Part shown: in pieces, positions 34,329 through 51,844 of the stretch
Layout: every line of letters starts with the position of its first letter
Numbering within the stretch: the stretch's first letter is position 1
NCBI GenBank assembly: GCA_903901015.1
Contig: CAIUPH010000026.1
Location: 62,001 to 126,000, forward strand
Reading direction: 5' to 3'
DNA: 64,000 nt
DNA from: Candidatus Bathyarchaeota archaeon
GTDB taxonomy: Archaea; Thermoproteota; Bathyarchaeia; Bathyarchaeales; Bathycorpusculaceae
Translations under genes and position numbers: made by a program
The notes under the pieces: model-generated
Databases searched by the model: none
Told to the model about the DNA's origin: nothing
Seen by the model: only the letters and a program-made list of their open reading frames with translations

Positions 34329-35063
34329 CTAAAGTTTTTCTGCGACGAATTCTTTTGCCCAGCCAGTGATGAATTCCACGTTGAGCTTCGTTAAGTAATA
34401 CAGGGTTTCAAAACTCAAGTTTACCAGCGCTGCAAACGGCGTAAAAATGAACCTTGCAACCACCCGCCGAAATAGCTGAAACAGTTTAAAGTGACCGTAA
34501 CGCCGATAGGATATGCCGATAGTAACGTAGTTTTTGGATGTGCCCAAATGTGTTGCACCCAGGAAAGGAAGAACTTTCCAAACGTAACCTGTTTTTTGGA
34601 CGTAGCGTTTGAAGTATTGGTCTTCGCCGAAGAAAAGCTTCGGAGGGTTATAGTTTTCCATGAGTTGCCGTCGAATGATGATGTTGTTGATATGCGGGTT
34701 AGTATCCAATTTGCTCAGGTTATACACGGTTCCGACGACTCGTTCGTAGGCTGCAACATGCTTGTTCTTGTGCACTGCAACTGTGCCGATGGCGCCAACC
34801 TTGGGCGTAATCGCACTCTTGACTAAGAGGAGCCAGTTCTCTGGCAAAAGCATGTCGTCATCGACCATCGCCACCCACTCCGTCTTAGCCGACAGAACCC
34901 CGTTCTTGCGTGCGGTACTCAGCGGTTTCTCATGAGTGTTTATGATTTGCCCCGCGCACGGCATGTGCTTGAGCTGATGCATCAGGGTCGGGTTAGCTTC
35001 GTCCCTTGAAGGCACCACAAAATCAACTTTCATGTCTTTGTCGGAGCAGGATGGCATAGGCAT
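34329..35063 (-). CDS. family 2 glycosyltransferase
   Basis: 244 aa. VDFVVPSRDEANP, a helix-strand Rossmann-like GT-A core, and the metal-binding MVDDDML motif; later FGEDQYFKRY carries the expected acidic catalytic position. Two C-terminal hydrophobic stretches suggest membrane association. A TATA-like AAACTATTTA about 23 nt upstream of ATG 35063 suits a leaderless start; an internal ATG at 35033 (MKVDFVV) is the alternative. First gene of the glycan island. Confidence 0.8.
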   Translation of the reverse strand: MPMPSCSDKDMKVDFVVPSRDEANPTLMHQLKHMPCAGQIINTHEKPLSTARKNGVLSAKTEWVAMVDDDMLLPENWLLLVKSAITPKVGAIGTVAVHKNKHVAAYERVVGTVYNLSKLDTNPHINNIIIRRQLMENYNPPKLFFGEDQYFKRYVQKTGYVWKVLPFLGATHLGTSKNYVTIGISYRRYGHFKLFQLFRRVVARFIFTPFAALVNLSFETLYYLTKLNVEFITGWAKEFVAEKL

Positions 35064-35120
35064 AATGTTCGCGTTTGGGTTAAATAGTTTATCGCAACCC
35101 TCAAATGCGCTGGGAAAAAG

Positions 35121-36509
35121 TTACATGTTAAGGATTTTGGCGGCTTTTTGCGCGGCGCGCTTGTTCTTCTTCGTTATCATCCCTTTCTGGATACCGTTGA
35201 GGAGTTGCAGAATCATGCCCTGCTTCACATGTTCAACCATCTGCTGCTCGCTGACGTCGGGAAGCCGCATGCAGTTGCCGATTTTAACGTTGTAGGCTGC
35301 GATGTCGAATTTTTTGGCGATGTCATGAAGTTTTGAGCCGATGATGGGGTTAGTTATGGACCAGGAAATGTACTCGATTAGATTCTCGCTTAGGCATTTA
35401 CGCGCAAACTCGAGGGTGTTGTTGACTTCTTGTGGGGTTTCATGTTCGAGTTTGCCGTTTGCTTCCCAAGCGTTGTAGAGCATCAGGAAACCGTAGACTT
35501 TGATTCCGTATTTCTTCAGAAGCTCAAGTGTTCGGATGTTGTCGGCTTGCGTTGCGTTCTTGCCTATTCCTTTTAGGACCCTGTCGTTTGCGGATTCAAG
35601 GCCGATGTGGACAAGCCATACGTGAATGTCGCTTAGTTTCTGGGATAACTCATCGTTTAACTTGTCTGCCCGCAGGTTACATTGGAACGTCATGCCCTTG
35701 AGATGTAGTTTCTCGATTTCAATGCAGACTTCAAGGCACCATTTGATGTCAACGTTAAAAGTGTCTGAGCGCAGGTAGATTTCCCGGATGCCTCTGCCAT
35801 ATAGGTAGTTGATTTCTTCCGCGATGTTTTTTGGTGAACGCTGCCGAACCCAGGGCTTTTCAAGTTTCCAAACGGGGTTTGAGCAGTAAGTGCAGTAGTT
35901 TGGGCAGCCGCGGATTGGAAGCAGGTACGCCATGCGTTTCTTTTTGCTGACAGCTATGTCGTAGTTTTCAAAGTCTATCATGTCCCAGGCTGGGAAAAAA
36001 TCGATGTCTTTTAGGAGCGGTCGGACGCCGTTGTTTTTTTGGAGGTTAACTGTGCCGACCACGTCGGTTACTGGTTGTTTAGCTTGGATTTTTTTGAGTA
36101 ATTCTGCGGTGGTTTCTTCACCTTCGCCCACGATGCAGATTTCAATTGGGGTGTTTTTGAGGACGTCCTGGGGGTCGATGGTTGGGTGAGCGCCGCCTGC
36201 AACCATAAGCATGTCAAGCCTCAGTTCCTTTACTTTCGCGATTGTCTCGAACGATAAGTCTCTTCGGGGTGTGGTGAATGAAATGGCGTAAACGTCAGGC
36301 TTAATTTCCCTGACTTTTTCAACGTGCTCTTCCATGGAGAGGAAGGGTTCAAGATAGTAAAATTCTATGTTTGGCAGGCGGGGTTTTGCGTAGCCGATTA
36401 TATAGAGGATTCCAAGGTTTGGCGATTCAGTAACGGCTTCGCCTTTGGATTCGCGTCCAAATGGTGGGTCAGCAAAAACAACCTTAAGCTTCTTTTGAGT
36501 TGGCGTCAT
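35121..36509 (-). CDS. B12-binding radical SAM protein
   Basis: About 462 aa. Residues about 1-140 form a cobalamin-binding-like domain (LKVVFADPPFG, MVAGGAHPTIDP, IVGEGEE). The radical SAM core follows with C-x3-C-x2-C in RGCPNYCTYCSNP, the 4Fe-4S site. The SPASM-like end is absent. BchE-type members do methylations or other radical chemistry on lipids, glycans or cofactors; the substrate is unknown. ATG 36509 is chosen, with a TTG 30 nt earlier as alternative. Its place in the island suggests a glycan or lipid modification (inference). Confidence 0.85.
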   Translation of the reverse strand: MTPTQKKLKVVFADPPFGRESKGEAVTESPNLGILYIIGYAKPRLPNIEFYYLEPFLSMEEHVEKVREIKPDVYAISFTTPRRDLSFETIAKVKELRLDMLMVAGGAHPTIDPQDVLKNTPIEICIVGEGEETTAELLKKIQAKQPVTDVVGTVNLQKNNGVRPLLKDIDFFPAWDMIDFENYDIAVSKKKRMAYLLPIRGCPNYCTYCSNPVWKLEKPWVRQRSPKNIAEEINYLYGRGIREIYLRSDTFNVDIKWCLEVCIEIEKLHLKGMTFQCNLRADKLNDELSQKLSDIHVWLVHIGLESANDRVLKGIGKNATQADNIRTLELLKKYGIKVYGFLMLYNAWEANGKLEHETPQEVNNTLEFARKCLSENLIEYISWSITNPIIGSKLHDIAKKFDIAAYNVKIGNCMRLPDVSEQQMVEHVKQGMILQLLNGIQKGMITKKNKRAAQKAAKILNM

Positions 36510-36660
36510 GTTTTCTTTGTTCACCGAAATGTAATCCACTACTCACTTTCCATGCAGGCGTATATATTTTGCTACTTTAGCTTTCTTTCTGCGGTTACAG
36601 GTAAACTTCATAAACTGCAACAGGGAAATGTAACGCACACTGAATTGAGGCATAATTGAG

Positions 36661-37797
36661 TTGGCAACCTTCCTTGTAGTTCACCCATACCTTGACATTT
36701 ACGGTGGCGGCGAACGCGTCTGCCACAACGTAATCAAAACTCTAGTTGCCCACGGGCAAAAAGTTGAATTGTTGACTTTTGATTTTGAAGCAAACAAGTA
36801 CCGCGATATTGTCGGAGAAGAGTTTCCCAAGGAAGTTGTTGTCCACTCACTCGGCAAACGCATTGAGATTGAGCCGCCCTTTACCATCTACAAAAGACAC
36901 CGCGCCTTTGTTAAACTGCTAAAAAAATACAAAAACCAATTAGAATACGATTATTTGTTTTCCACACAATCTTCATCGCCATTTGAACCAGTTTTCTTAA
37001 ACAAAGCCAAAAAAAACATAGCCTACGTTCACTTCCCAGAAATACACTACGACTACGCTCGCTCTGGGCTGAAGAGGCGGCTTTATCTATGGCTGTTTAA
37101 GCGGTGGGTTGAGCAGGGCATAGATAAGCTGGATTTGGTTTTTTGTAATAGCAACTACACTAAAGAAAAAATTATGCATTATTGGACAAGCCATGGTGTA
37201 AAAGAGCCAATCGTTGTTTATCCCCCAGTTAACCTAGAGACGTTTTGGTCTGACAAGCCGTTGGCAAAACGCCGCAAAAGAGTAACCTATGTTGCTCGCT
37301 TTATTCCAGTAAAAAGACATGAAATAATGAAAAGGTTAGCTGCTGATTTACCTGCCTACGAGTTTGTAAGCGTCGGTGGATTAATCGATGCAGAAAAAGC
37401 ATGGTTTAGCAAATTCACAGAAAATCTGCCGCCGAATTATTCTGTTAAGACAAACTTGCCTGGACCAGAGATGCTTAAAGTTTTGCATGATTCCCGAATT
37501 TATGTTCATTTGATGGAGGGAGAACATTTCGGCATAGCCCCTGTTGAAGGCTTAGCAAGCGGATGTGTTACAATAGTTCATAACAGTGGAGGCATGAAAG
37601 AGTTTATCCCTGACGAGTTCAGATGGGAAACCTACGATGACTTACAGCAGAAGATTGTCAGGTTCATGGAAGATGAAAATGCAAGTGCAAATTGGGAATG
37701 CAACCGCCAACTGCTATGGAGCAAAATTTCCGTTCTTAATCCTGAAACGTTCCAAAATAAAATATGGTCTCAAATACAGGAACTTTCAAAAGAATGA
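36661..37797 (+). CDS. family 4 glycosyltransferase (paralogue 1)
   Basis: 378 aa, GT-B fold. The N-terminal donor-side loop is DIYGGGERVCHNVI, and the C-terminal E-x7-E motif appears as EHFGIAPVE in LMEGEHFGIAPVEGLASG. It probably transfers mannose- or glucose-type sugars to a lipid-linked or protein glycan; similarity in layout to ALG11-type mannosyltransferases is noted. It starts at TTG 36661. A close paralogue follows at 40105. Confidence 0.88.
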   Translation: MATFLVVHPYLDIYGGGERVCHNVIKTLVAHGQKVELLTFDFEANKYRDIVGEEFPKEVVVHSLGKRIEIEPPFTIYKRHRAFVKLLKKYKNQLEYDYLFSTQSSSPFEPVFLNKAKKNIAYVHFPEIHYDYARSGLKRRLYLWLFKRWVEQGIDKLDLVFCNSNYTKEKIMHYWTSHGVKEPIVVYPPVNLETFWSDKPLAKRRKRVTYVARFIPVKRHEIMKRLAADLPAYEFVSVGGLIDAEKAWFSKFTENLPPNYSVKTNLPGPEMLKVLHDSRIYVHLMEGEHFGIAPVEGLASGCVTIVHNSGGMKEFIPDEFRWETYDDLQQKIVRFMEDENASANWECNRQLLWSKISVLNPETFQNKIWSQIQELSKE

Positions 37798-37836
37798 AGA
37801 GGAAACTTGTAACACTATGTTTATGGCGATGTTGGT

Positions 37837-38454
37837 ATGAGCAAAGAAGAGAAGTTGAAAGCTGAACCCATTGAAGTCAAATTCGGGTTTTCAGAGAGAA
37901 AACATCTGCCCGTTGTAAAAGTTGGAACAGTTTCGTATCCGCTGTGGAAATATAGGTACGCCAAAAGAATCGGGAAAATGGTGGCTGCCCTATGCCTTGA
38001 TGAATGGGGAAAAGCAATTATTTATTCGGAACTTGACCAATTTGAAAAATATTATTTGCCGCCCTTTCCATTGAAGAATAAGACCGTCTTGGATTTGGGC
38101 GCTTGCTGTGGTGAGACAGCTTATTTCTACCTTCAACATGGAGCCAAAAAAGTCATCTGTGTCGAACCCGACCCAACGCGAGCAAAACTAATTCTCCAAA
38201 ATAAACAAAATCTAAATCTAAACATAGAACTAATCAACGAATTTTTCGTTCCAAAACATCTCTTGCTAGACCATGACTTCATTAAATGTGATATTGAAGG
38301 GCATGAAATTGATTTGATTCCATCTGCCAAAGAACTGAAACCTTGCATTGTTGAAGCTCATGGACTAAATATTCGGGAGCAATTTGAGAAGATCGGTTTC
38401 CATGTAGTGTTTCGCCAGAAGAATGGTCTCTTCTTGATGACAAATTATTCTTAA
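37837..38454 (+). CDS. FkbM-like SAM-dependent methyltransferase
   Basis: 205 aa. SAM motif I is TVLDLGACCGETAYF; KKVICVEPDPTRAKL is the acidic loop that binds ribose; FIKCDIEGHEIDLIP is the FkbM signature. Such enzymes O-methylate sugars. ATG 37837 follows the upstream GT4 by 39 nt, so co-transcription is likely. Target glycan unknown. Confidence 0.82.
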   Translation: MSKEEKLKAEPIEVKFGFSERKHLPVVKVGTVSYPLWKYRYAKRIGKMVAALCLDEWGKAIIYSELDQFEKYYLPPFPLKNKTVLDLGACCGETAYFYLQHGAKKVICVEPDPTRAKLILQNKQNLNLNIELINEFFVPKHLLLDHDFIKCDIEGHEIDLIPSAKELKPCIVEAHGLNIREQFEKIGFHVVFRQKNGLFLMTNYS

Positions 38455-38512
38455 CATAAACGTGTGATTTGCGGAACCCAGAGGGTTTATAACTAAAACA
38501 GCGTTTTCTTAG

Positions 38513-40015
38513 TTGGCAACTGAACGAGCAATGATAAAGCTAAGAATCGACGTTGACTATCCGTACCCCTCAAGGGCTAAAAGCTTTCTGTATGTAGCCC
38601 TGCGAATAAAAAAAAGAAAAAGCAAAGACTACCTGAAAAACGCACGCATCATTGCAAGGATGATTAACGAATCGCCAAAAGAGGTTAAGGCTTACTGGTT
38701 CTTTACCCCCTACACTATCCCTGACAAGAACCTGCTTGATTTGTTAAATCCAGAAAAGCACGAGGTAGCGCTTCATGTGGCAAATGACGCCATGAAAGAA
38801 TGGAAAGTTTTGGAAAAGGAAACCAACCGCAAAATAGAGAACTACACCATTCATGGCACTAAACGAATATTCACTAGAATCCTTTGGGGTCGCAAAATAA
38901 CCGAAAGCCAAACCAAGATACCAAACGATTTTCCTTTAAAATCGTTCCATGACTTCGAAACATACGGTTTAGATGCCGTGTGCTTCCACGCCAGTAAAGA
39001 TGATGCCCAAAAGGCAACAAAAGACTGGATTAACGCCGGCTTTGTCATTTCCATGCATCCTGAATGGCTCTTTCATGGGAGCAAAAGAAGTCGAAGGGGT
39101 GCGCTCTATGAATCACTAAAAAGCGTTTTGGAAGTGGACCCTGAACTCGATACGATAAGCGTGAGTGAGAGGGTTGGAATTAGAATCGCTCGCGACTTTC
39201 GAGAGTACGAAAAAAGTGTCAAGCCAACCGACGATTTGATTTTTAAGCTTGACTCAAGGGATATGGACATTTTTACTTTTGTTGAACGGAAATGGTGTTG
39301 CCCCATCGCTAATCCGCCGAGCCCTTGGTCAAGAACCGACGACAACATCGGGTTGCTTGAAATAAAAGACTGCGAAAGCTGGTGGAGTGTAATCGGAAAG
39401 AAAACGCGCAACATGGTGCGCAAAGCGGAGAAAAGCGGCGTAAACGTTACCGTTGTCGACCCAAGTGACAAGTTAGCTCAAGGCATTTGGAAAATCTATA
39501 ATGAAACCCCAATTCGGCAGGACCGGGCTTTTTCCCACTACGGCGAATCGCTTGAAACTGTAACGGGCAACATGTATGCAGCTAAAACATCCACCTTCAT
39601 TGCGGCAAACATAGGTGATGAACTTGTCGGATTCATCCAAATACTTTACGGTGACGACATAGCCATAGTTTCAAACATACTCACGATGCTGAAGCACTGG
39701 GATAAATCCGTAAACAACGCCATGATTGCAAAAGCGGTTGAAGTCTGCGCATCCAACGGCAACCGATGGCTCATGTACGGAAGAATAGGCAACCACCCTT
39801 CACTCGACAAGTTCAAGGAAAACAACGGGTTCGTCAAGTACCCTATATCCCGTTACTACATACCAATCACGGGAAAAGGAAGAGTGGCTATACGCTTGAG
39901 CTTGCATAAGGAACTCAAAGACGCGTTGCCCCAGTCCATAAAGGACCCAATTATTCCCATATTTAACTGGGTCAGCAGGAACAAGATGCGGTTAAAACTT
40001 GCACGCCGCAAATAA
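38513..40015 (+). CDS. polysaccharide-deacetylase-like / GNAT-like fusion protein
   Basis: 500 aa. The N-terminal half (about 1-240) has the deacetylase-like pattern IKLRIDVDYPYPS, HEVALHVAND, YTIHGTKR and VISMHPEWLFHG. The C-terminal half (about 265-480) looks like a FemAB/GNAT-type acyltransferase: WWSVIGKKTRNMVRKAEKSG, FIQILYGDDIAIVSNI, WLMYGRIGNH. Such a pair could remove and replace an acyl group on a surface sugar (inference). It starts at TTG 38513; TTTATAA 24 nt upstream suits a leaderless start, and ATG 38531 is the alternative. Confidence 0.7.
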   Translation: MATERAMIKLRIDVDYPYPSRAKSFLYVALRIKKRKSKDYLKNARIIARMINESPKEVKAYWFFTPYTIPDKNLLDLLNPEKHEVALHVANDAMKEWKVLEKETNRKIENYTIHGTKRIFTRILWGRKITESQTKIPNDFPLKSFHDFETYGLDAVCFHASKDDAQKATKDWINAGFVISMHPEWLFHGSKRSRRGALYESLKSVLEVDPELDTISVSERVGIRIARDFREYEKSVKPTDDLIFKLDSRDMDIFTFVERKWCCPIANPPSPWSRTDDNIGLLEIKDCESWWSVIGKKTRNMVRKAEKSGVNVTVVDPSDKLAQGIWKIYNETPIRQDRAFSHYGESLETVTGNMYAAKTSTFIAANIGDELVGFIQILYGDDIAIVSNILTMLKHWDKSVNNAMIAKAVEVCASNGNRWLMYGRIGNHPSLDKFKENNGFVKYPISRYYIPITGKGRVAIRLSLHKELKDALPQSIKDPIIPIFNWVSRNKMRLKLARRK

Positions 40016-40104
40016 ACAGCCTCCAAGCAAGAGGTAACAGCATTAGACGTTAAGGGAAATCTTGATTAAACCTAAACGCTCAATTCTAAAAAGGACGACG
40101 TAAC

Positions 40105-41253
40105 ATGGCAAAATTCCTGGTTATTCACCCAAACATGGACATTTACGGCGGAGGCGAACGCGTATGCCATCACATCATCAAAGCACTCGTCGCCCAAGGA
40201 CACCAAGTGGAGTTGCTGGCGTTTGATTTTGACCAAACTCGCTACAGCGAAATCATGGGTGAAAAACTACCCGAAAAGATAACCGTCCACACACTAGGAA
40301 ACAGAGCCACTGTGGAAGCGAACCCGCCATTATCCGTTTACAAAAGACGCCAAAATATCCTAAAACTTCTAAAAAAGTACAAAGCCACTGTCGATTACGA
40401 TTATACGTTTAGCACACAAACCTTCTCAGCGTTCGAAGCTACACTTTTAGAAAAAGCAAAAAAAAACATTGCCTATGTGCACTTTCCCGAAATCCACTAT
40501 GACTACGAACACGCCAAACGAAGCAAAAGATTGTACCTGTGGCTATACAAGAAGTTGCTTGAAAAAGATATCGGTAAACTGGCCTTGGTGTTCTGCAACA
40601 GCAACTATACTAAAGCCATGACAGAAAAGTACTGGAGCAGGTTCGGAATCCAAAATCCCGTGGTTGCTTATCCTCCTGTTGAAGAGCGTTTCTGGTCTGA
40701 TAAACCGTTAAACCAGAGAGCCAAGCAAGTATTGTATGTTGGTCGTTTGGTTCCTCAGAAACGGCATGAGCTAATGAAGAAATTAGCTGTCGACTTTCCC
40801 CAGTTTGAATTTGTAAGCGCCGGTTTGTTGAGAGATAGCGAGCAATCATGGTTTGAGGACTTTTCAAAAGACCTACCAACCAACTACACCGTTAAACCAA
40901 ACCTGCCTGAAGAAGAATTAATCAAGCTTTTTGAGGATTCGCGAATCTACTGCCACTTGATGGAAGGAGAACATTTTGGCATTGCTCCGATGGAGGCGCT
41001 GGCAAGCGGATGCATAACGCTCGTTCATAACAGCGGGGGAAGCGGAGAATTTATCCCCGAGGAATTTCGATGGAGCACTTTTGAAGATTTAAAGGAAAAA
41101 ATAGCCCGATTGGCAGAGTCGACTGATGAATATGCTCTTTGGAACAAGAAAAAGGGGGAACTGCGAGACAAGATATCGGTCCTAAAGCCTGAGAGTTTTG
41201 AAGAGCAAATATCAACCAGTATAGCAAATTTGATACAGAATCTGAAAACTTGA
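40105..41253 (+). CDS. family 4 glycosyltransferase (paralogue 2)
   Basis: 382 aa, GT-B fold, closely related along its length to the GT4 at 36661 (same DIYGGGERVCHHII loop, KKNIAYVHFPEIHYDY and EHFGIAPMEALASG with the E-x7-E motif). The two genes bracket the methyltransferase and the fusion gene, so the duplication is recent enough to read by eye. Probably adds a similar sugar at another step. ATG 40105. Confidence 0.88.
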   Translation: MAKFLVIHPNMDIYGGGERVCHHIIKALVAQGHQVELLAFDFDQTRYSEIMGEKLPEKITVHTLGNRATVEANPPLSVYKRRQNILKLLKKYKATVDYDYTFSTQTFSAFEATLLEKAKKNIAYVHFPEIHYDYEHAKRSKRLYLWLYKKLLEKDIGKLALVFCNSNYTKAMTEKYWSRFGIQNPVVAYPPVEERFWSDKPLNQRAKQVLYVGRLVPQKRHELMKKLAVDFPQFEFVSAGLLRDSEQSWFEDFSKDLPTNYTVKPNLPEEELIKLFEDSRIYCHLMEGEHFGIAPMEALASGCITLVHNSGGSGEFIPEEFRWSTFEDLKEKIARLAESTDEYALWNKKKGELRDKISVLKPESFEEQISTSIANLIQNLKT

Positions 41254-41419
41254 AATTTTAGAGCCGAAAGCAAAGCTATAGTGGCAGTATTATAGAATTG
41301 CGATTGAAGGCTCGCGGTATTTTTCCGCTACCTGATTAAGGATGGCAAAATAATTTTGAGTTGACTTACCTCCAGCAAAAGGATCCGTTTTCTGAAAACA
41401 GTTCATTTTAGAAAGAACG

Positions 41420-42349
41420 CTAAAACGTTCTTTTAAAGGCCAATATTGAGTATTGTTCAGATATAGCTCGCTCTCTATCTATTTTGAAGATAGCTTGCTC
41501 AAATTTCCTCAGGATAATTCGTCTGATTTCGGGCGAATGAACTTCAATCATATAGTAAGCAACTTTCTGCAAAATTTCGGCTGGAACATTTGCTAAACAT
41601 TCTTCAGCACCCTCACAATCAAATTTTGCGATTTCTGCCCCACTTTCAGCTATAACTTTTGAAACATCAGTAATTTTTATTTCGATATGGTTTGGTCCTT
41701 CGTCCAAAAGTCCGAAGCCTGGATCTTTTTCGCCATAGTGGATTATTTTTGTTCCATCTTTATCTCCAATGCCGGAATTGTGAATTTCAGCGTCAATATG
41801 ATTGAGCTCAACATTTTTTTTGATTACCTCTATGTGTTCCCCAACGGGTTCGTAAATGATGACTTTTTTTGCACCCTTGGACCAAAAATAAGCGGCTGAT
41901 TCGCCTTCAAATCCTCCAACATCTAGCACGACTTTACCTTTACAGTCGCATACATAGTCGCCTCTTCGTATTTCTTGGATGCAGTATAATATTGCTAAGG
42001 AGCCAAATAGTTCAATCTCACTGTTTTTTAAATGGTATAACCCGTTTTCTTGGTGAACGGCAAAGGGTGCCATTAAATCAAAAATCATGGGTAATATTGC
42101 GTAAGAAGACGTTACGTCGCTTCTTTCATCCACTATTCTAAACGTATCGTCGTCTAATTGTGTTACGATGTACTTCTTTAGAAACGCGAAATTGTCGCGA
42201 AATACCCTATATTGAGGATATGTCAGGCAATAAGTTGACTTGTTCTTAAAAGTGACTGGTCGTCTGATCTTGGACCTTTTCAAGGATAATACGGCGAGAG
42301 GGTTACGAGTAACTGTCAGCATTCTCCAAATTACTCCTATTTTCGCCAA
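41420..42349 (-). CDS. FkbM family methyltransferase
   Basis: 309 aa. The N-terminal region (about 1-120) is specific to the group; SAM motif I is KVVLDVGGFEGESAAYF; KKVIIYEPVGEHIEVIKKNVELN is the next motif; EIAKFDCEGAEECLANV is the FkbM acidic-motif equivalent. Likely O-methylation of a sugar. It starts at TTG 42349. Base composition around 41.3-44.7 kb looks more AT-rich than the ribosomal region, which hints at a different origin. Confidence 0.88.
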   Translation of the reverse strand: MAKIGVIWRMLTVTRNPLAVLSLKRSKIRRPVTFKNKSTYCLTYPQYRVFRDNFAFLKKYIVTQLDDDTFRIVDERSDVTSSYAILPMIFDLMAPFAVHQENGLYHLKNSEIELFGSLAILYCIQEIRRGDYVCDCKGKVVLDVGGFEGESAAYFWSKGAKKVIIYEPVGEHIEVIKKNVELNHIDAEIHNSGIGDKDGTKIIHYGEKDPGFGLLDEGPNHIEIKITDVSKVIAESGAEIAKFDCEGAEECLANVPAEILQKVAYYMIEVHSPEIRRIILRKFEQAIFKIDRERAISEQYSILAFKRTF

Positions 42350-42566
42350 CTTTTCACCCTTCTTTACTGCATAAGAGATATGTTTAGTATGTTAAGTTTT
42401 AGTCTTGCTGTCAATGTTTACTGTTTTTTCTGGGGGGGTCTTTTGAGGGAGTACTCGATTGTTTTATCAAATCCTCGGTTGATATTAACCGCTGGACATT
42501 ATGAGAGATAATTTTATTACTTTAGTTTCTGCATCTTTATCTTATTTGTTGCAGAGGGCTTGATAA

Positions 42567-43799
42567 GTGAGAATCGCGATGCTTCATCCTTCGCTTACTT
42601 TGCGTGGCGGCGCTGAAAGGCAGCTACTAATCTTAGCTATAGAATTAGAACGGATGGGGCATGAAGTTGAAATTTTCACATGTGCAATCAATGATAACTG
42701 CTACCCTGAACTGACCCGACAGCTCACAATAAATAGGGTAAAAACCCCCGACACAGGTTCGTTCCAAAATATAAATCAAAAAAGAACGTTGTCTTCACGG
42801 TTAGCTGGAAGATTCAAAGGCTACACATCCGATTTACCGTCCATGATTGCGCTGGGGAAAAAAATACCTAAAGGTTTCGACGTAATTAATAATCAGAATT
42901 CTCCAACCCAGTGGGCGGCATTCTTTGCTAAAAGAAAACTGGACGCTCCGATTGTTTGGAACTGTAACGAGCCGCCATTTTACTATTCAGATCCAAAACA
43001 AAGAAGAGGTTTAGGAAAAATCAATCTGCCCCTATACGAAGGATTCGATAAAATCGCCGTTGACTACATTGACAGTATAGTTTCAGTTTCTTTAGTTGAC
43101 AGCAGACGCATCGAAAAAGCCTATGGCAGGTCATCCAAAATAGTTCGCCCCGGCGTCACCACTGAATTGCTTCTTAAAGCGTCAGGTAAAGAACTACGGA
43201 TAAAGTATGGGCTCGAAAACAGTTTTGTTCTTCTTCAAGTAGGCAATATTGCACGCGACAAACGGCAATGCGATTCATTGATTGCACTGCATTATCTATC
43301 CAAAAAGCATGATAATGTAAGGTTGATTTTAGTCGGTCAAGGTCCAAGAGATGAACTTATGGCCTTAAGCAGAAAATTGGGTGTCGACAAGAAGGTTCTG
43401 TTTTTGCAAAATTGCTCTGATGAGGAATTAGCACAAGTGTATGCTGCATGTGATGCATTTGTTTTTCCGGCGCAGATAACGTGGGGATTAGTAGTCATAG
43501 AGGCTATGGTGGCATCTAAACCCGTGTTAGTCTCGAGAGAAGCTGGGTCTTCAGAGATTATTCAAGAGGGTCAAAACGGATTTGTTATAGAGGAACCTTA
43601 CACTAAAAATATGGCTGCAAAAATTGAGAAGTTGATAACGGACCCCGACCTGCGAAGGAGAATAGGAAATAACGCCTACGAGTACACCAAAGAAAACTTA
43701 TCTTGGGAAATCTACGCAAAAAACATGGAAACTGTTTTCGAAAAAACAATAGCCAATTTTAGAAAAAGCAAATTAAGGCAATTCTCTTTTATTTCTTAA
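42567..43799 (+). CDS. family 4 glycosyltransferase
   Basis: 410 aa, GT-B fold, different from the duplicated pair. MLHPSLTLRGGAERQLL is the N-terminal loop; FVLLQVGNIARDKRQ starts the C-terminal Rossmann domain; TWGLVVIEAMVASKPV is the nucleotide-sugar motif, in which the first acidic residue of E-x7-E is Thr. It starts at GTG 42567. It overlaps the convergent gene at its 3' end by 4 nt. Confidence 0.88.
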   Translation: MRIAMLHPSLTLRGGAERQLLILAIELERMGHEVEIFTCAINDNCYPELTRQLTINRVKTPDTGSFQNINQKRTLSSRLAGRFKGYTSDLPSMIALGKKIPKGFDVINNQNSPTQWAAFFAKRKLDAPIVWNCNEPPFYYSDPKQRRGLGKINLPLYEGFDKIAVDYIDSIVSVSLVDSRRIEKAYGRSSKIVRPGVTTELLLKASGKELRIKYGLENSFVLLQVGNIARDKRQCDSLIALHYLSKKHDNVRLILVGQGPRDELMALSRKLGVDKKVLFLQNCSDEELAQVYAACDAFVFPAQITWGLVVIEAMVASKPVLVSREAGSSEIIQEGQNGFVIEEPYTKNMAAKIEKLITDPDLRRRIGNNAYEYTKENLSWEIYAKNMETVFEKTIANFRKSKLRQFSFIS

Positions 43800-44722
43800 A
43801 GGTCCCTAATTGAATCTAAAACTTCGTCTCTAACATGGTAATTTTTTAGTGAAGCATCTGCGATTAAGTCCCTGACTATTCTTGGGTGCTCATTCAATGC
43901 AACTGTTCCAAGAGCAGTGGGGCAATTGAAACCTAATTCTTTTCTGCGTATCTCAGCAGCTTTTTTCCAGAACGACGCAGGGTCATCTGAATGATTTTTG
44001 AGGGCTTCCATATCTTTTCTGAGGTTTTCAAGACCAAACATGTCAATGTGTTTTTGGCATTTTTCGAGATAATCGATGGGAAAAAGAGACCAGTATCTGT
44101 AAATGGGCTTTGGAAGATAGATGGCCTTCGACAAAGGAGATGAAATAGAATTGGCATAGGTCCATTCGATGCCCTTATAAATGTACTGTAGCATTCTTCT
44201 TGGGTGTCTGAGGCCTCTGCGGGTTTCTGATTTTGTGAATGATTTGCTTGGACCAAGCGTCCACGCATCCACCACAGCGACTATGTCCTTATTGTTTTTT
44301 GAGAATCTTAATCGGAAATCTTCGTAGAACCGGTAGTCCTTTACTAGATGGACAAAAGGTAAACTGAAAGTGTTAACGTCTGGGCGTGTTTCAGGGAGCG
44401 CTCTGAGGAATTCTACGTCGTCTTCATGGATGATTTCGTTTGCTTGTATGGAAAAAATGTAGTCGTAACTGCATTTGGCTCTGATTACGTTGGTTACTTC
44501 TGTGATGACACTGTATTTTTTTTCGCTGGGCCATTGCTGCCTGATGACCTTGACTTTCTTGTTTAACGATGCGATTTTCTCAACCACTTCAAAAGTGCCG
44601 TCTGACGAGTAACCCTCGCCGATTAAAAATTCATCGCATACAGGTAAACATGCGGCTATCGACTCCACAAAAGGGTACCCAGTTTTCAAGACGTTTTTCA
44701 GCACCATGAAGCCGGAAATCAT
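43796..44722 (-). CDS. glycosyltransferase family 2-like protein
   Basis: 308 aa. Start ISGFMVLKNVLKTGYPFVES, then LIGEGYSSDGTFEVVEKIAS, a GT-A-like substrate-entry pattern with EGYSSDG. No clear D-x-D is seen (QANEIIHEDD may serve). Likely sugar transfer to a surface glycan. Starts at ATG 44722. Confidence 0.75.
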   Translation of the reverse strand: MISGFMVLKNVLKTGYPFVESIAACLPVCDEFLIGEGYSSDGTFEVVEKIASLNKKVKVIRQQWPSEKKYSVITEVTNVIRAKCSYDYIFSIQANEIIHEDDVEFLRALPETRPDVNTFSLPFVHLVKDYRFYEDFRLRFSKNNKDIVAVVDAWTLGPSKSFTKSETRRGLRHPRRMLQYIYKGIEWTYANSISSPLSKAIYLPKPIYRYWSLFPIDYLEKCQKHIDMFGLENLRKDMEALKNHSDDPASFWKKAAEIRRKELGFNCPTALGTVALNEHPRIVRDLIADASLKNYHVRDEVLDSIRDL

Positions 44723-44816
44723 AAATGGCCACTGGAAAAAGGTTCAGGGCAGAACTTATTAATTTACTTATAGGTAAGGTGTTTATGGCATTGTATACTG
44801 TGGAGGCGGCGTTCAG

Positions 44817-45716
44817 ATGAAGATCGGTGTAACAGCGCCAGTTTACGTGAACAACGAAGAACACAAGAAATACCTTGATTTGACAACTAAATCCATTGTT
44901 TCTTCAAAACACGAAATCGTTTGGGTGCCCTGCGAAAACTACGTTAACCCCACTTTTCAACCGCTTGTTTATGTCTTCGGCCATCCACCAAGCGAGACCA
45001 GAATCCTTAATCCAGAGGGAAAACAGAGCGTTTCTCACGCGTGGAATCTGGGCATCGAAGAAGGCAATATGGCAGGATGCGATTACATCTTGGTAATCAA
45101 CACGGACATTGTGTTCAAAAGCAACACAATCGACAGATTGGTTGATTTTGCCCAGAAACATCCTGAAGCCGTAATGTGGACGGGCACCGAATGTGAAGAC
45201 CTACCAAGCTTAGAGTCGTGCCCCGAAAACGAGAACATAACCATGAACCCGCATTATTCATGTTTCCTGGTTAAACACGACTTTTTCAGCCATGTGGGGA
45301 ACTTCGACGAAAATTTTGCGCCGTCATACTGCGAAGACGTAGACATGTACACGCGGCTGTTGCTTTCAGAAAAAAAAGCTTACAAGTACGGCGGCGCCCG
45401 ATTCTACCATTTCGGCTCGCGGACCATAAAATCCGATGAAGCTCTCCTGAAAAATAATTCGAGAACTCACAGCAGATGTCAGCTTTATTTTTCTGAGAAA
45501 TGGGGTTCTCCCATGATTGAGGATGTTGAGAAGATTAAGACAGTTTTTTTTAAGCATCCCTACAATGAAGCGGATAAACCATTGAGTTACTGGAGGCCCC
45601 CCCAAAACTCGGGGAAGTTGAGGGATGCTCTTCCTTTGTCTGTTCAGTTTTCGTTTGTTTCATTCTTGAATTGGATGAAACGAACTAAAAACCGAGTTAA
45701 ACCACACCGAAATTGA
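44817..45716 (+). CDS. family 2 glycosyltransferase
   Basis: 299 aa. MKIGVTAPVYVNNEEHKKYL at the start, VINTDIVFKS as the D-x-D metal site, and FDENFAPSYCEDVDMYTRLL as the acceptor/catalytic segment (rhamnosyl-type GT2 pattern). ATG 44817. Last gene of the glycan island; the next gene is 6 nt from its stop on the other strand. Confidence 0.85.
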   Translation: MKIGVTAPVYVNNEEHKKYLDLTTKSIVSSKHEIVWVPCENYVNPTFQPLVYVFGHPPSETRILNPEGKQSVSHAWNLGIEEGNMAGCDYILVINTDIVFKSNTIDRLVDFAQKHPEAVMWTGTECEDLPSLESCPENENITMNPHYSCFLVKHDFFSHVGNFDENFAPSYCEDVDMYTRLLLSEKKAYKYGGARFYHFGSRTIKSDEALLKNNSRTHSRCQLYFSEKWGSPMIEDVEKIKTVFFKHPYNEADKPLSYWRPPQNSGKLRDALPLSVQFSFVSFLNWMKRTKNRVKPHRN

Positions 45717-45721
45717 AGTTG

Positions 45722-45991
45722 CTAAAGCAGAAGAGCTACTAAAAGCTCATTTAGTTCCTGCTTGTTCTTGACTCCTCTAAAGATTGCTTTGCCCGTGGAG
45801 TATACGCGGAATGATTGGCCTTGGAAGGTTAACTCGAAAATTATCCCAGCAATCTTGTTCTTGAGGGTGGCTTTTTTCAGGATGTTGGAGATTGCCTCGT
45901 CCTTCTTCTCGTACTTGAACACTACTATAACGTCGCTTTCTGCCCCACATGTTCCCTCGATTCGAGACACGTAATCGTCGACTGTGGCCAT
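45722..45991 (-). CDS. small protein with TBP-half-like pattern, last gene of the Fe-S operon
   Basis: 89 aa. IIFELTFQGQSFRVYSTGKA followed by IFRGVKNKQELNELL resembles one repeat of a TATA-binding protein (strand-turn-strand then helix), but only by eye. ATG 45991 overlaps the stop of the desulfurase gene in TAATG, so it belongs to that operon. Function unknown. Confidence 0.5.
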   Translation of the reverse strand: MATVDDYVSRIEGTCGAESDVIVVFKYEKKDEAISNILKKATLKNKIAGIIFELTFQGQSFRVYSTGKAIFRGVKNKQELNELLVALLL

Positions 45992-47217
45992 TAGAGCTGC
46001 TCAAACTCCTTCAAGACTTCAAGGAAACGGTCCACTTCTTGCTGCGTGTTGTAGATGTAGAAGCTTGCGCGGGCTGAGGATTCCAGCTTGAAAATCTCGT
46101 GAAGCGGCTGAGCACAGTGGTATCCGCTGCGCATCATGACGCCGTAGTTGTCGAAGAACAATGCAACGTCGTGCGAAGACAAGCCTTTTACGCCGAAGGG
46201 TATGATTCCCAGTTTCTTTGAAAGGTCGCTTGGACCGTAAACGGTTACTTTGCTGCATTCCTTCATGCGCTCGGAAGCGTACTTAGTTAATTCTTTCTCA
46301 TGGCTCAAAACGTTGTCCATGCCTAAAGCTTCAAGGTACTTGACAGCTGCTCCCAAGCCGATTGCGCCGCCGATGTTCGGGGTGCCAGCCTCAAATTTCC
46401 ATGGTAACTCATTCCATGAGACGCTGCATTGGCCTTGGCTAACGGAGACTTCCTTTATCATTTCGCCGCCGCCCATGAATGGAGGCATCTTTTCAAGCAC
46501 TTCTTTCTTGCCGTAGAATACTCCGATGCCTGTGGGGGCGAGCATTTTGTGTCCTGAAAAAGCAAGAAAATCCATGTCTAAATCTTGAACGTTGACCTTC
46601 ATGTGGGGCATTGATTGGGCGCCGTCGACAAGCATCAAGGCGCCGTTGTCATGCGCTACTTTGCCGATGCGTTTAACGTCGTTGATTACGCCTGTAACGT
46701 TTGAAACATGGCTTAGGCAGGCTATCTTTGTTTTTTTGGAGATTTTGCTTTCAAAGTCGTCGTAGTCCAGTGTGCCGTCGGGGTGGACGTTGGCGTATTT
46801 GATTGTGAAGCCCTTTATTTTGGCGGTGATTTCCCAGGGAACGATGTTGCTGTGGTGCTCCATGAGCGAAACCAGAACCTCATCACCCTTGCCAAGATTG
46901 CTTAGTCCCCATGAATAAGCCACCAAGTTGATGGCTTCCGTTGTGCCCCTGACAAAAACGACTTCGCTGGAGCTTTTGGCGTTGATGAATTTAGCGATGG
47001 TTTCGCGGGATGTCTCGTAGAGGTCGGTTGCTTCCAGTGAGAGGGTGTGGACGGCTCGGTGGACGTTGCCGTTGTGGTTTTCGTAGAAGTCCGTTACGGC
47101 GTCGATGACTTGGCGTGGTTTCTGGGTGGTTGCAGCGTTGTCAAAGTAGATTAGGGGGCTGCCGTTTATTTTCCGATTCAGGATTGGAAAGTCTTGTCGT
47201 GGGGCTATGGCATCTAT
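45991..47217 (-). CDS. sufS: cysteine desulfurase, SufS type, without a canonical start
   Basis: About 408 aa if translation begins at ATA 47217. DFPILNRKINGSPLIYFDNAATT is the family N-terminus and lies before the first usable TTG (46926). The PLP lysine is in SGHKMLAPTGIG, the persulfide cysteine in RSGYHCAQPL. PLP enzyme that releases sulfur from cysteine for Fe-S assembly. No ATG, GTG or TTG exists in frame between an upstream TGA and 46926. An ATG at 47213 is in another frame; one missing base after it would fix the gene. Confidence 0.85.
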   Translation of the reverse strand: MDAIAPRQDFPILNRKINGSPLIYFDNAATTQKPRQVIDAVTDFYENHNGNVHRAVHTLSLEATDLYETSRETIAKFINAKSSSEVVFVRGTTEAINLVAYSWGLSNLGKGDEVLVSLMEHHSNIVPWEITAKIKGFTIKYANVHPDGTLDYDDFESKISKKTKIACLSHVSNVTGVINDVKRIGKVAHDNGALMLVDGAQSMPHMKVNVQDLDMDFLAFSGHKMLAPTGIGVFYGKKEVLEKMPPFMGGGEMIKEVSVSQGQCSVSWNELPWKFEAGTPNIGGAIGLGAAVKYLEALGMDNVLSHEKELTKYASERMKECSKVTVYGPSDLSKKLGIIPFGVKGLSSHDVALFFDNYGVMMRSGYHCAQPLHEIFKLESSARASFYIYNTQQEVDRFLEVLKEFEQL

Positions 47218-47726
47218 GATTTTTTTTCTGCCTCAGGTTTTAGCCTCTTAGAGAGTGTCTTTGCCAGTTCTTCCTCTTCTAATGCTTGTTTTTCTTCGAA
47301 TGTGTGTTCTTTAGGCAGCCAGCTTGGTGCTTCGACATTTCTCTGTGTGAAATACTGTCGGATGGCACGTTTCAAGGCACCGACTGCGAGGACTCCGCAG
47401 TGGAATTTAACGTCAGGTAACCCGCCGATTTCCTCCACCACACGTTTCCACGTGATGTCATTCCACGCAGCTTCCAAACTCATGCACTTTATCATTTCAG
47501 TGACGATGCTGGAGGTGGCGATGTTGGCGGCGCAGCCGTAGCTTTCAAACTGCGCTTTCTCAATGATGTCTTTGTCGCTGATTTTCAAATAGAAAGTTAT
47601 CATGTCTCCGCAGGCAGGGTTTCCTGCAACGGCGACGACTGTGGCATCTTCCATTTTGCCAAGGTTCTTTGGGTTACGGAATAAATCCATGATTTTTGGG
47701 TTATACGGTAAGGGCATACGTGACAT
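47214..47726 (-). CDS. iscU: Fe-S scaffold protein, IscU/NifU-like
   Basis: 170 aa. All three cluster-binding cysteines are present: GNPACGD, ESYGCAANIATSS and KFHCGVLAVGALK. It receives sulfur from desulfurase and iron and hands on the cluster. The C-terminus has a charged tail (LEEEELAKTLSKRL). Its start lies 2 nt after the nifS-like stop, and its stop touches the sufS start region. Confidence 0.93.
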   Translation of the reverse strand: MSRMPLPYNPKIMDLFRNPKNLGKMEDATVVAVAGNPACGDMITFYLKISDKDIIEKAQFESYGCAANIATSSIVTEMIKCMSLEAAWNDITWKRVVEEIGGLPDVKFHCGVLAVGALKRAIRQYFTQRNVEAPSWLPKEHTFEEKQALEEEELAKTLSKRLKPEAEKKS

Positions 47727-47728
47727 TT

Positions 47729-48952
47729 TTAATCTACTCCTGTTGAGCCAACTATCCCTCTGATACGGTTGACAGCTGTAGGTAGAACCTTCAGAACGTA
47801 AGCTATATCTTCTTCTGTGTGGGCGCGAGTGACTTTCATGAGTATGCTGCCGTGTGCTTCACTGTAGTGGCGTCCGATAGCGACGAGCACGTGGCTGGGC
47901 TGCAAAAGTCTTCTGCTGCATGCGCTTCCGCTTGAAACGTAGACGCCGCTAAGACTCAGCTCGATTGTTAATGCTTCGCCTTCTGCGCGGAGTATGCTTA
48001 CGTTTGCGTTGTCTGGAGAGCGTTTGTCGCCTTTTGGACCGTTAAAGCGCAAGTCATCAAGCTCGTTGAATATGCCGTCGACAAGTTTGTCGCGCAGCGT
48101 TCGCATCTTGGTGGTGTTTGCTTCAAAGTTCTCGAAAGCAAGCTCGGAAGCCTTGGTGAAGCCGACGATTAACGGGGTGTTTTCGACGCCTGGCCAAAGT
48201 TTTTGTGTGCCAATTTGCCCTTCGAGGATGCGCTCCATGTTTATGCCGCTTTTAAGGTACATTGCGCCCATACCTCTTGGACCCTGAATCTTGTAGCTGC
48301 TAAGGGTGGCTAAGTCCACGTTTAGGTTCTGCACGTTTAAGGGGATTCTGCCGTATGCGTCTGAAGCGTCGGTGTGGAAGAGGGCGTGTGGGTTTTTGGC
48401 TTTAACGATGTCCACGGCTTCCTTGATGGGCTGGATTGTGCCGACCTCGTTGTTTACCGATGAGATGCTGACCAGTATGGTTTCGCTGTCGACTGCTTCT
48501 TTGAGTTTCTCCAGATTAACGAAGCCTTCGTTGTTGACTGGGATTTTCTGGGTTGTGAAACCGTATTTCTGCATCATCTCGGCTACTTGGAGCACGTTGA
48601 TGGGTTCGATTTCTGAGATTACGATTTTTTTGCCCTTGCCTTTCTGTGCAAAGCATGAGCCCATTATGGCTTGGTTGTTGGCTTCGGTTTCGCTTGGGGT
48701 GAAAGTGATTTCTTCAAGGTTTTTGGCGCCTATGTATTTGCTGATTTTTTTGAAGCTGTTCATTATGACTTCGAACGCTTCCCAGCCGGGTTTGTGGGTT
48801 AGCGTGGGGTTGCCGTAGGCGGTCTTGTTGAAGTAAGGCAGCATCGCATCCACCACTTCCTGTGGGACGATGCAGGAGTTTTCGTTGTCTAAGTAAACCT
48901 CATGTTTTATGCCCTCGTGCAGTTTGAGGAGCGCTTTTACGTTTTCAACCAT
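47729..48952 (-). CDS. NifS/IscS-like protein with altered active site
   Basis: 407 aa, class V PLP aminotransferase fold. The persulfide cysteine loop GSACSRRLLQPSHVL and the lysine in LSSYKIQGPRGMG are kept. Two usual features differ: N-terminal YLDNENSC in place of YLDNAATT, and ISEIEPINVL where IscS has the catalytic EHKAVL, so the active-site histidine is replaced by proline. SAHK is SSYK. The true desulfurase may be the SufS-like neighbour, and this one may be altered in activity. ATG 48952. Confidence 0.85.
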   Translation of the reverse strand: MVENVKALLKLHEGIKHEVYLDNENSCIVPQEVVDAMLPYFNKTAYGNPTLTHKPGWEAFEVIMNSFKKISKYIGAKNLEEITFTPSETEANNQAIMGSCFAQKGKGKKIVISEIEPINVLQVAEMMQKYGFTTQKIPVNNEGFVNLEKLKEAVDSETILVSISSVNNEVGTIQPIKEAVDIVKAKNPHALFHTDASDAYGRIPLNVQNLNVDLATLSSYKIQGPRGMGAMYLKSGINMERILEGQIGTQKLWPGVENTPLIVGFTKASELAFENFEANTTKMRTLRDKLVDGIFNELDDLRFNGPKGDKRSPDNANVSILRAEGEALTIELSLSGVYVSSGSACSRRLLQPSHVLVAIGRHYSEAHGSILMKVTRAHTEEDIAYVLKVLPTAVNRIRGIVGSTGVD

Positions 48953-49237
48953 ACAGTATCCTACCTGAATTTTTTGGGACAGATAAACTCGTTCTATCCT
49001 TGCTAGTATCTAGTTCAAGTAAAAAAACCTAACCGCGGCAAGCCTTCCCAACTCGCATTTTTCTAAAGTTAATTTCTGTCTTTAAAAAAAGATTTGAACA
49101 GAAAAACTGTGTCTCCATTGTAGTTTAAAGATTTACATGGAAAGAATATCAAATTTCTAAACAAATGGCTGTGAATTAAACTAAATTTAAATAGAACTTA
49201 AGAAAATAGAGGCGCTTGGGGATGTTATACGGCTGCA

Positions 49238-49411
49238 ATGTTTGAAATAAGAAATACAATGAACGGCAAATTCTACTGGAGATTCAAAGCAATCAACGGC
49301 GAATTAGTTGCAACAAGCGAGGTTTACGAGACAAAACAGGACTGCAAAAACGGCATAGACTGCATCATGAGCAACGCGGTTTTTGCCGCTATCCGCGACC
49401 AAACCGTCTAA
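49238..49411 (+). CDS. DUF1508 (YegP-like) mini-protein
   Basis: 57 aa, single DUF1508 repeat. MFEIRNTMNGKFYWRFKA and NGELVATSEVYETKQDCKNG match the family, whose single domain often works as a dimer. GAGG at 49209-49212 lies upstream but at a long distance. Function of the family is not established. The gap before it (48953-49237) shows an AT-rich promoter-like stretch at about 49185-49198 and nothing else. Confidence 0.75.
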   Translation: MFEIRNTMNGKFYWRFKAINGELVATSEVYETKQDCKNGIDCIMSNAVFAAIRDQTV

Positions 49412-49555
49412 GCCCTTCATTTTTCTTTTTTTCCAGACCCAGAAGTTTAACATTGTTTTTTCAATTTCTGAGTTAAACATCGGGCGAAAAAACCTTCAAG
49501 TTACAAAAAAACTCTAATAACCCATCCAAAACCATACTATCCAACAACCAAATTA

Positions 49556-51844
49556 TTGGCGAATACCTTGAAGATTGCAGAGTTATCCGTGCCCGAATCC
49601 GTCAAAGAAGTCCTGCTTGGCTTGGGAATATCCGAGTTGTTTCCGCCTCAGGAAGACTGCATACTGGCAGGAGTGCTCGATGGCAAAAACATCGTTTTAG
49701 CCAGCCCGACAGCTTCAGGCAAGACGTTGATTGCGGAGCTCTGCGCGCTCAAACATGTATTGGAGAGAGGGGGCAAAGTCATCTACCTCTCACCGTTGCG
49801 GGCTTTGGCAAGCGAGAAGTTTGAGGAATTCAAAAAATACTGCACCATCAAAAAGCCAGATGGAAGAGAAGTTTCGGTGGGCATCAGCACGGGCGACTTT
49901 GACAGCGCCGACAACTGGCTTGAACGATACGATGTCATCATAACTACAAACGAGAAAGCCGACTCGCTGCTGCGTCACCGCGCCAAATGGATGGACACCA
50001 TTTCGTTGGTTGTTGCCGACGAAATTCACCTGTTAAACGACGGCGGACGCGGACCAACCTTAGAAATCGTGTTGGCAAGACTCATGCAGGTTAACCCCCT
50101 TATCCAGATTTTAGCGTTAAGCGCCACCATCAACAACGTGGATGAAATCGCAGGTTGGCTCAACGCCAAATACATCGTGACCGAATGGCGTCCCATAAAT
50201 CTCAAAGAAGGCGTCATGCTTCAAGCTGAAGTCCAATACAAAGATGGTTCCTCAAGGAAGGTGGAACAAGAAACCCACTTTACCATCATAAACATGGTTT
50301 TAGACACCCTCAAGAACGGTGGGCAAGCGTTGATTTTTGCTTCCACACGGCGCAACGCGGTTTCAGCGGCTAAAACCGTTGCAACTCACATGGATAAGGC
50401 GCTTTACCCGAAATCGGGTTCAAAACTGGTTAAACGTTCGTTAGAGGAGAAAACACGCAAGGTTCTCGATGAAGAAGCTAAGAAAATCCTCGATGCAGGC
50501 GAACGAACAGGTTTGAGCGAGGAACTTGCCGATTTGGTTCGCTGCGCCACGGCATATCACCATGCAGGGCTGTCGGGGGCTCACCGCAAAATAATCGAAG
50601 ACGCATTCAAAGACCGAAAAATCAAGGTTTTAACCGCCACCCCAACGCTGGCATGGGGCGTCAACTTGCCCGCACGCACAGTCATAATCCAAGATTACCG
50701 CCGCTTCGAAGCTGGACTTGGCAACTACCCCATAAGCGTCCTGGATTACAAGCAGATGGCAGGGCGGGCGGGAAGACCAAAATACGACAAATTCGGCGAA
50801 TCCGTACTCATCGCAAAAACAGCCGACGAAGCCGACTTCCTCATGGAAAACTATGTGATGGCGAAAACCGAGAAAATCTGGTCCCGCCTCGCAGTCGAAA
50901 AAATCATCCGCACCCACGTGCTCTCAACGATAGCTTCAGGCTACGCAGACACAGAGCAGGGTATCTACGAGTTTTTCGGAAAAACCTTCTACGCTTACCA
51001 ATTCGACGTGAAAGCCATCAAAAGCGTCATAGACAAAATCCTGCGTTTCCTCGATGAAGAAGACATGATCTGCGTTGCAGGCAACCGCCTCTTAGCCACT
51101 AAATTCGGCAAGCGCATAAGCGAACTCTACATCGACCCCCTCTCTGGCGTAATCATCAGGGATGCCTTGCAGAGTAAACCCCCGATTCTAACTGAGTTCA
51201 GTCTGCTGCATTTAGTTTCGCATACACCCGACATGGGTCCGATAATGCGCCCCTACCAGCGTGAAATGGAGCAGTTAACCATTCAAACTGAAAATCACAT
51301 GCAAGAATTATTCACCGACCCCCCAGACCAACTGCGTGACCACATCGGCTACGCAGAATTCCTAGGCGAAGTCAAAACCGCCATGGTTATGAACAACTGG
51401 ATAGAGGAGTTGCCCGAGGAAAAAATCATCGAACGCTTCAGTGTTCAGCCCGGAGACCTATATCGAACCGTTGAAACCGCCAAGTGGCTCCTCCACGCCA
51501 TAGACGAGTTGTCGCCTGTTGTAGCTAAAAACAAGGAAGTCCCAGCGTTAAGCCACGAACTCGTTGAACGCGTTTCCAAAGGCATCAAGAGGGAGCTGTT
51601 GCCCATTGTGGCGTTGGAGGGCGTTGGCAGAGTCCGCGGGCGCATCATATTCAACGCAGGATATCAAACGATTCCAGACCTCAAGCACGCCTCGATAGAA
51701 GAACTCACCAACCTGCCATCCGTGGGTCCAAGGTTAGCCAAGAAAATCAAGGAGCAGGTCGGCGGCTTCGTCAAAAAAGAAGAATGGGCAGATTTAGGAA
51801 AAGCCCCTGAAGGAACGCCGCAGAAAGGCTTGTTTGAGTTTTAA
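49556..51844 (+). CDS. hel308: ATP-dependent DNA helicase, Hel308/Ski2 type
   Basis: 762 aa. Motif I ASPTASGKT (49-57), motif II DEIH, motif III LSATIN, motif VI QMAGRAGRPKYD. A winged-helix and ratchet region follow; the C-terminal helix-hairpin-helix (VALEGVGRVRGRIIF, NLPSVGPRLAKKIKE) is the Hel308 hallmark for forked DNA. Acts at stalled replication forks and in repair. TTG 49556 (MANTLKIAELSVPESV). Overlaps purB by 4 nt at the 3' ends. Confidence 0.93.
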   Translation: MANTLKIAELSVPESVKEVLLGLGISELFPPQEDCILAGVLDGKNIVLASPTASGKTLIAELCALKHVLERGGKVIYLSPLRALASEKFEEFKKYCTIKKPDGREVSVGISTGDFDSADNWLERYDVIITTNEKADSLLRHRAKWMDTISLVVADEIHLLNDGGRGPTLEIVLARLMQVNPLIQILALSATINNVDEIAGWLNAKYIVTEWRPINLKEGVMLQAEVQYKDGSSRKVEQETHFTIINMVLDTLKNGGQALIFASTRRNAVSAAKTVATHMDKALYPKSGSKLVKRSLEEKTRKVLDEEAKKILDAGERTGLSEELADLVRCATAYHHAGLSGAHRKIIEDAFKDRKIKVLTATPTLAWGVNLPARTVIIQDYRRFEAGLGNYPISVLDYKQMAGRAGRPKYDKFGESVLIAKTADEADFLMENYVMAKTEKIWSRLAVEKIIRTHVLSTIASGYADTEQGIYEFFGKTFYAYQFDVKAIKSVIDKILRFLDEEDMICVAGNRLLATKFGKRISELYIDPLSGVIIRDALQSKPPILTEFSLLHLVSHTPDMGPIMRPYQREMEQLTIQTENHMQELFTDPPDQLRDHIGYAEFLGEVKTAMVMNNWIEELPEEKIIERFSVQPGDLYRTVETAKWLLHAIDELSPVVAKNKEVPALSHELVERVSKGIKRELLPIVALEGVGRVRGRIIFNAGYQTIPDLKHASIEELTNLPSVGPRLAKKIKEQVGGFVKKEEWADLGKAPEGTPQKGLFEF

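Follow-up and report, generated by a model that had tools for sequence, protein, structure and literature searches.

The window analysed here is a stretch of 64,000 nts from a Candidatus Bathyarchaeota archaeon (contig CAIUPH010000026.1). Ten open reading frames, A to J, occupy positions 34329-45716 (Table 1), where the initial annotation had counted nine genes; the kinds of genes it named are real. The GT4 assignments (genes at 36661, 40105 and 42567) are well over the Pfam/NCBIfam cut-offs, and the GT2-like signal of A (34329), I (43796) and J (44817) falls below the curated ones, which gives six glycosyltransferase-like genes where five or six had been proposed. Both of the expected FkbM-like methyltransferases score over the TIGR01444 cut-off of 37.7 bits (44.6 bits for the gene at 37837 and 62.6 bits for the gene at 41420). 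Gene B carries the two domains expected of a B12-radical SAM enzyme and resembles BchE/HpnJ, with a score far under the equivalog cut-offs. Together with the fusion E, a two-domain protein of 500 residues, this content supports a glycan-building island. The window's cluster includes no nucleotide-sugar or flippase gene that would name the sugar.

Table 1. Genes and flanking features of the glycan cluster (window coordinates).
Gene	Position	Strand	Description	Family evidence
A	34329..35063	-	GT2-like glycosyltransferase, conserved left edge	weak PF00535
B	35121..36539	-	B12-binding radical SAM enzyme, conserved edge gene	PF04055 + PF02310
C	36661..37797	+	GT4 glycosyltransferase, core copy	PF00534/PF13439
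D	37837..38454	+	FkbM-family methyltransferase, AT-rich, variable	TIGR01444 above cut-off
E N-half, residues 1-215	38513..39157	+	atypical NodB/ArnD-like deacylase domain (putative)	
E C-half, residues 216-500	39158..40015	+	FemX/MprF-like GNAT-fold transferase domain (putative)	
F	40105..41253	+	second GT4, accessory paralogue of C	
G	41420..42349	-	FkbM-family methyltransferase, AT-rich, variable	TIGR01444 above cut-off
H	42567..43799	+	GT4 glycosyltransferase, variable	PF00534 E=3e-35
I	43796..44722	-	probable GT2-like glycosyltransferase, variable	PF13704 E=0.015 only
J	44817..45716	+	GT2-like glycosyltransferase, variable	PF10111 E=5e-5, below cut-off
Right anchor, outside glycan cluster	45991..51844		two cysteine desulfurase genes, SufU, Hel308	names by sequence recognition, without family scan

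Matches to E are found in 56 of the 151 genomes of the order, mostly in one family, and the homologues are 46-69% identical end to end. Most members of the genus and many members of the family have E, and most other families lack it; a scan of 300 phylum genomes finds a match to the N-half in just one genome outside the family. The fusion is no assembly accident, since homologues from dozens of genomes share the same two-domain architecture. We found no published description of this fusion in the literature searched. Outside the family, all three close homologues of the C-domain (L148, L053 and L054) have an adjacent separate gene of the N-type or NodB-type. In L148, a member of another family, the C-type gene and a NodB-type gene share 14 bases, and in L053 and L054 the C-type gene is directly followed by an N-type or NodB-type gene. 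ArnD is the nearest named relative of these neighbour genes, one of which matches ArnD at 7.5e-5 and PF01522 at 0.0019. That the halves occur as separate neighbours in three genomes outside the family argues for a single pathway step.

Other divided versions are of several kinds. At L100:8001-9510 the fusion appears as two ORFs with an 8-base overlap at the linker, which is either a real split or possibly a sequencing (indel) error. In genome G058 the halves are on separate contigs (L057 and L058), with an intact N-half at the suf site and the C-half away from it, downstream of a decayed N-half with two TGA codons. In two alphaproteobacterial loci (L106 and L107, at about 5.1-10.5 kb), a NeuC-like gene on one side and NeuB/NeuA-like genes on the other, all recognised by inspection, flank a FemAB-like relative of the C-half. 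This Neu-type setting hints at an acylation of nonulosonic-type amino sugars.

We obtained an alignment-based model of E with pLDDT 91 and pTM 0.83; the single-sequence prediction, at pLDDT 34, was useless. The model alignment (A4) left out the L148 genes because they blurred the N-domain columns. In a Foldseek search with the whole-E model, which the C-domain dominates, the best PDB matches are the aminoacyl-tRNA-dependent peptide synthases Sbb17 (E=3e-11)/Sba18, followed by L-PGS, MprF/PGS and FemX, with TM-scores by target of about 0.5-0.6 for single-domain chains. A search of a viral fold library returns mostly generic GNATs. Sequence searches of the PDB find nothing convincing for either half. 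The C-half matches TIGR03019 with E=3e-8 and 31-33 bits, under the curated cut-off of 260 bits, and the window protein does not pass the PF02388 or PF09924 cut-offs (the best members have E=1.6e-4 and 8.9e-4). The CoA loop [QR]xxGx[GA] appears in residues 381-415 of none of 55 sequences, and the pair F434-K435 is invariant in 53/53. The key lysine of DhpH-C sits in a Phe-Lys pair, F328-K329, and FemX has Lys305 (PMC12945691); F434-K435 may correspond to these residues. A FemX-like fold and the Phe-Lys pair are also found in GNAT-like proteins of unknown donor. The basic tail of E (its last 32 residues carry +4 to +9) is what one would expect of a helix contacting tRNA or membrane. E lacks a signal peptide and membrane segments, and its net charge is about +21; both would fit a cytosolic enzyme that binds RNA or membrane.

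The structure prediction, a check suggested by the initial annotation, gives the C-half a GNAT-type fold of the tRNA-dependent kind. The label "GNAT-like" holds for the fold, but not in the sense of an ordinary acetyl-CoA GNAT, since the nearest folds are tRNA-dependent and the CoA loop is lacking. For the donor we lean somewhat towards aminoacyl-tRNA over acyl-CoA. More specifically, one chain might "unmask and aminoacylate": in this tentative reading, an ArnD-like deacylase is joined to a FemX-like transferase that would put a tRNA-borne amino acid onto an amino sugar of the archaeal surface glycan. Also possible, though we doubt it, is the same exchange with an acyl-CoA (or acyl carrier) donor, in which the amine would receive a common acyl group, for example acetyl or 3-hydroxybutyryl. 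The sequence hits to generic GNAT families (PF00583, PF13480) and the weak matches to CoA-dependent acetyltransferases favour that donor, but no sequence has a CoA loop at the expected place and the best folds are those of tRNA-dependent enzymes.

In the N-half, residues D13, D15, H83, H88, H114 and H182 are invariant in 50/50 sequences. Its elements DxD, WFF, HEVAL-H and HP, on strands 1, 2, 3 and the last in turn, follow the order of the NodB motifs MT1, mt7, mt8/MT2 and MT5 (PMC10967932). The two Asp of the CE4 MT1 are present as D13 and D15, spaced as DxD and not in tandem. The strand motifs mt7 and mt8 are found in the model as AYWFF on strand 58-64 and HEVAL on strand 83-89, and the MT5 His is the invariant H182, after strand 178-181. 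The H-x3/4-H pair of MT2 is absent: H88 is invariant, and four or five residues further along there is no conserved His. The main candidate to stand in for the second histidine is H114. Because that histidine is missing we do not file the N-half as CE4; ArnD is itself placed outside CE4 (PMC10967932). No family matches the N-half significantly, and PF01522 does not match the window protein, with one of 55 members reaching E=0.047. When profiles are compared directly, the N-domain shows no link to canonical PF01522 proteins (P 0.4) and a weak one to XrtA-type proteins (P 0.005). With the neighbour-gene family included, the match to the NodB-like neighbours reaches P=5.7e-5, where the best of 16 controls has 0.041; the first of these values is somewhat flattered by the choice of the alignment set among about a dozen profile pairs. 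The set D-x-D, L-H, H-G and H-P also appears in a distant stand-alone copy, L127. The motif order and the invariant D/H residues support the proposed "deacetylase-like" half, as a putative atypical NodB/ArnD-like deacylase with a modest sequence link to NodB.

One or both domains might not be catalytic as assumed, the N-domain being a non-hydrolytic sugar-binding module or an enzyme for another amide and E only acylating the glycan. The MT2 motif without its second His and the weak profile link to canonical NodB would agree with this, but the invariance of five candidate active-site residues in 50/50 sequences and the conservation of the motif set as far as L127 make it unlikely.

The reading we prefer, to which we give about even chances, is that E works in the cytosol on a precursor of the surface glycan, removing the N-acyl group from one of its amino sugars and then re-acylating that sugar, within a variable glycan locus. 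E would act on the precursor, most likely lipid-linked, before export. The N-domain, with a bound metal, would hydrolyse the N-acetyl or N-formyl group of the amino sugar, and the C-domain would move a new acyl group onto the freed amine of the same sugar. The finished glycan would presumably be passed to surface proteins by an AglB/STT3 encoded elsewhere; STT3 is present in the genome.

We compared the stretch from B to the suf genes in 16 related genomes that have both edges, one genome per species, which samples variation between species only. The 37 protein families found between B and the suf genes include 19 that occur in a single genome. E is recovered in 16/16 genomes, B in 15/16 (the L024 stretch stops within B, a clipping matter) and a GT4 of the C/F type in 15/16, and every other family is in at most 4/16. 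Glycosyltransferases make up most of the variable families tested; the others include methyltransferases, an epimerase and additional radical SAM genes. Among the window's own variable genes, H, I and J occur in 2/16, 3/16 and 2/16 cassettes, and D is found in none of the others. An orthologue of A, 75-87% identical, adjoins B in most subclade genomes with a long enough locus; C is in nearly all subclade loci, and B orthologues are 79-89% identical in the genomes that also carry C. The suf-hel308 block is near E in 29 of the 35 loci with a full-length fusion, and of the remaining six, several sit on short contigs or at the end of a contig.

Other genes were noted at these loci. At 45991-48952 of the window, a SufU-like gene lies between two cysteine desulfurase-like genes, with a Hel308-like neighbour, an arrangement kept in most of the family. 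One variable cassette includes a PKD/DUF11 surface-type protein of 639 residues (L033:13166-15085), and in two cassettes a DUF3131 protein lies between the GT4 C and the fusion (L022:10858-12384).

Composition by gene is not uniform. Against a background GC of 0.482 +/- 0.023, D has 0.39 (z -4.1), G 0.385 (z -4.3) and H 0.41 (z -3.2), and A, B and E have host-like GC3. The AT-richness reported for 41-45 kb is there, but it is not confined to that region, as D at 37.8-38.5 kb is equally AT-rich. In the loci of related genomes, mean GC3 is 0.543 for B and C, 0.479 for E and 0.431 for the variable genes. Core exceeds variable GC3 in 13/15 genomes (Wilcoxon P=0.0003), and the contrast is also present inside the window. 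Because the AT-rich genes are those that turn over between relatives, we interpret the pattern as a partial exchange of genes; of the "partial foreign origin" first suggested, this much stands, but uptake of the island in one step is rejected. A single acquisition of the whole cluster as a common kind of foreign glycan island, fusion included, would account for the low GC of D, G and H, but it is highly improbable given the host-like GC3 of E, A and B, the family-wide conservation of E and its site, a divergence of E that tracks that of nifS (Mantel rho 0.53; 0/999 permutations), and signs of exchange in interior genes only.

The GT4 genes C and F, which bracket D and E, had suggested a module duplication, and this does not hold. 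C and F are 59% identical and form separate lineages in the GT4 tree, each spanning the genus, with moderate support for the split (92/67 and 65/61; the F clade, of 10 sequences, has 92/67) and no sign of recent local copying. About half of the loci lack F, and where present it is found beyond E or together with C; in three relatives both F and C are on the B side of the fusion, and F brackets nothing. The match between D and G covers 55 residues only, and E is single-copy in the window's genome (2.05 Mb assembly). We reject a duplication of the module because the C and F lineages are old and genus-wide, the D/G match is short, E is single-copy and the placement of F varies. The GT4 pair is an old paralogy.

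The gene content, the conserved site and the turnover describe a surface-glycan locus that is specific to the species and keeps a fixed chromosomal position beside suf-hel308. As a whole, with the mechanism of E included, this is the best explanation we have, and we hold it with evenly divided confidence. The conserved edge genes A, B and C, together with E, surround a set of glycosyltransferases and methyltransferases that can be exchanged. Bathyarchaeia have here a variable glycan locus of a serotype-like kind, with a bearing on the recognition of these cells by viruses and neighbours. The parts of E are of known kinds, and the fusion is kept across an archaeal family known from sediment, peat and termite-gut samples. 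If E does unmask and aminoacylate, it would connect the surface coat of this family to its pool of tRNA, and it is a concrete candidate enzyme for amino-acid decoration of archaeal glycans.

Several known systems compare with this locus and its fusion. Bacterial O-antigen and capsule loci also have a fixed site, conserved edges and an exchangeable AT-rich interior of glycosyltransferases, whereas the present locus is archaeal and its variation is known between species only. NDST, one enzyme with both N-deacetylase and N-sulfotransferase activities (PMC13353177), would work alike, in that a single polypeptide unmasks an amine and substitutes it; but its second domain is a sulfotransferase, it is eukaryotic and it acts on heparan, and we claim no homology of the fused whole. 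With the FemABX/MprF enzymes (including Sbb17 and DhpH-C), E shares the predicted C-domain fold, the lack of a CoA loop, the invariant Phe-Lys pair and a basic C-terminal helix. It differs from them in that the C-half has only 10-15% identity, under the Pfam/NCBIfam cut-offs, and is fused to a deacylase-like domain in an archaeal glycan context, with a putative use of tRNA. In XrtA/PEP-CTERM loci, a FemAB-like family (TIGR03019) and polysaccharide deacetylases are both tied to that exopolysaccharide system, but as separate genes, and E scores 31 against the cut-off of 260. With ArnD and CE4/NodB, the N-half would share a likely (beta/alpha) barrel, and it has their motifs Asp-x-Asp (strand 1), "WFF" (strand 2), "HEVAL-H" (strand 3) and His-Pro (last strand); unlike them, it is short (215 residues), without the second MT2 histidine or a significant direct family hit.
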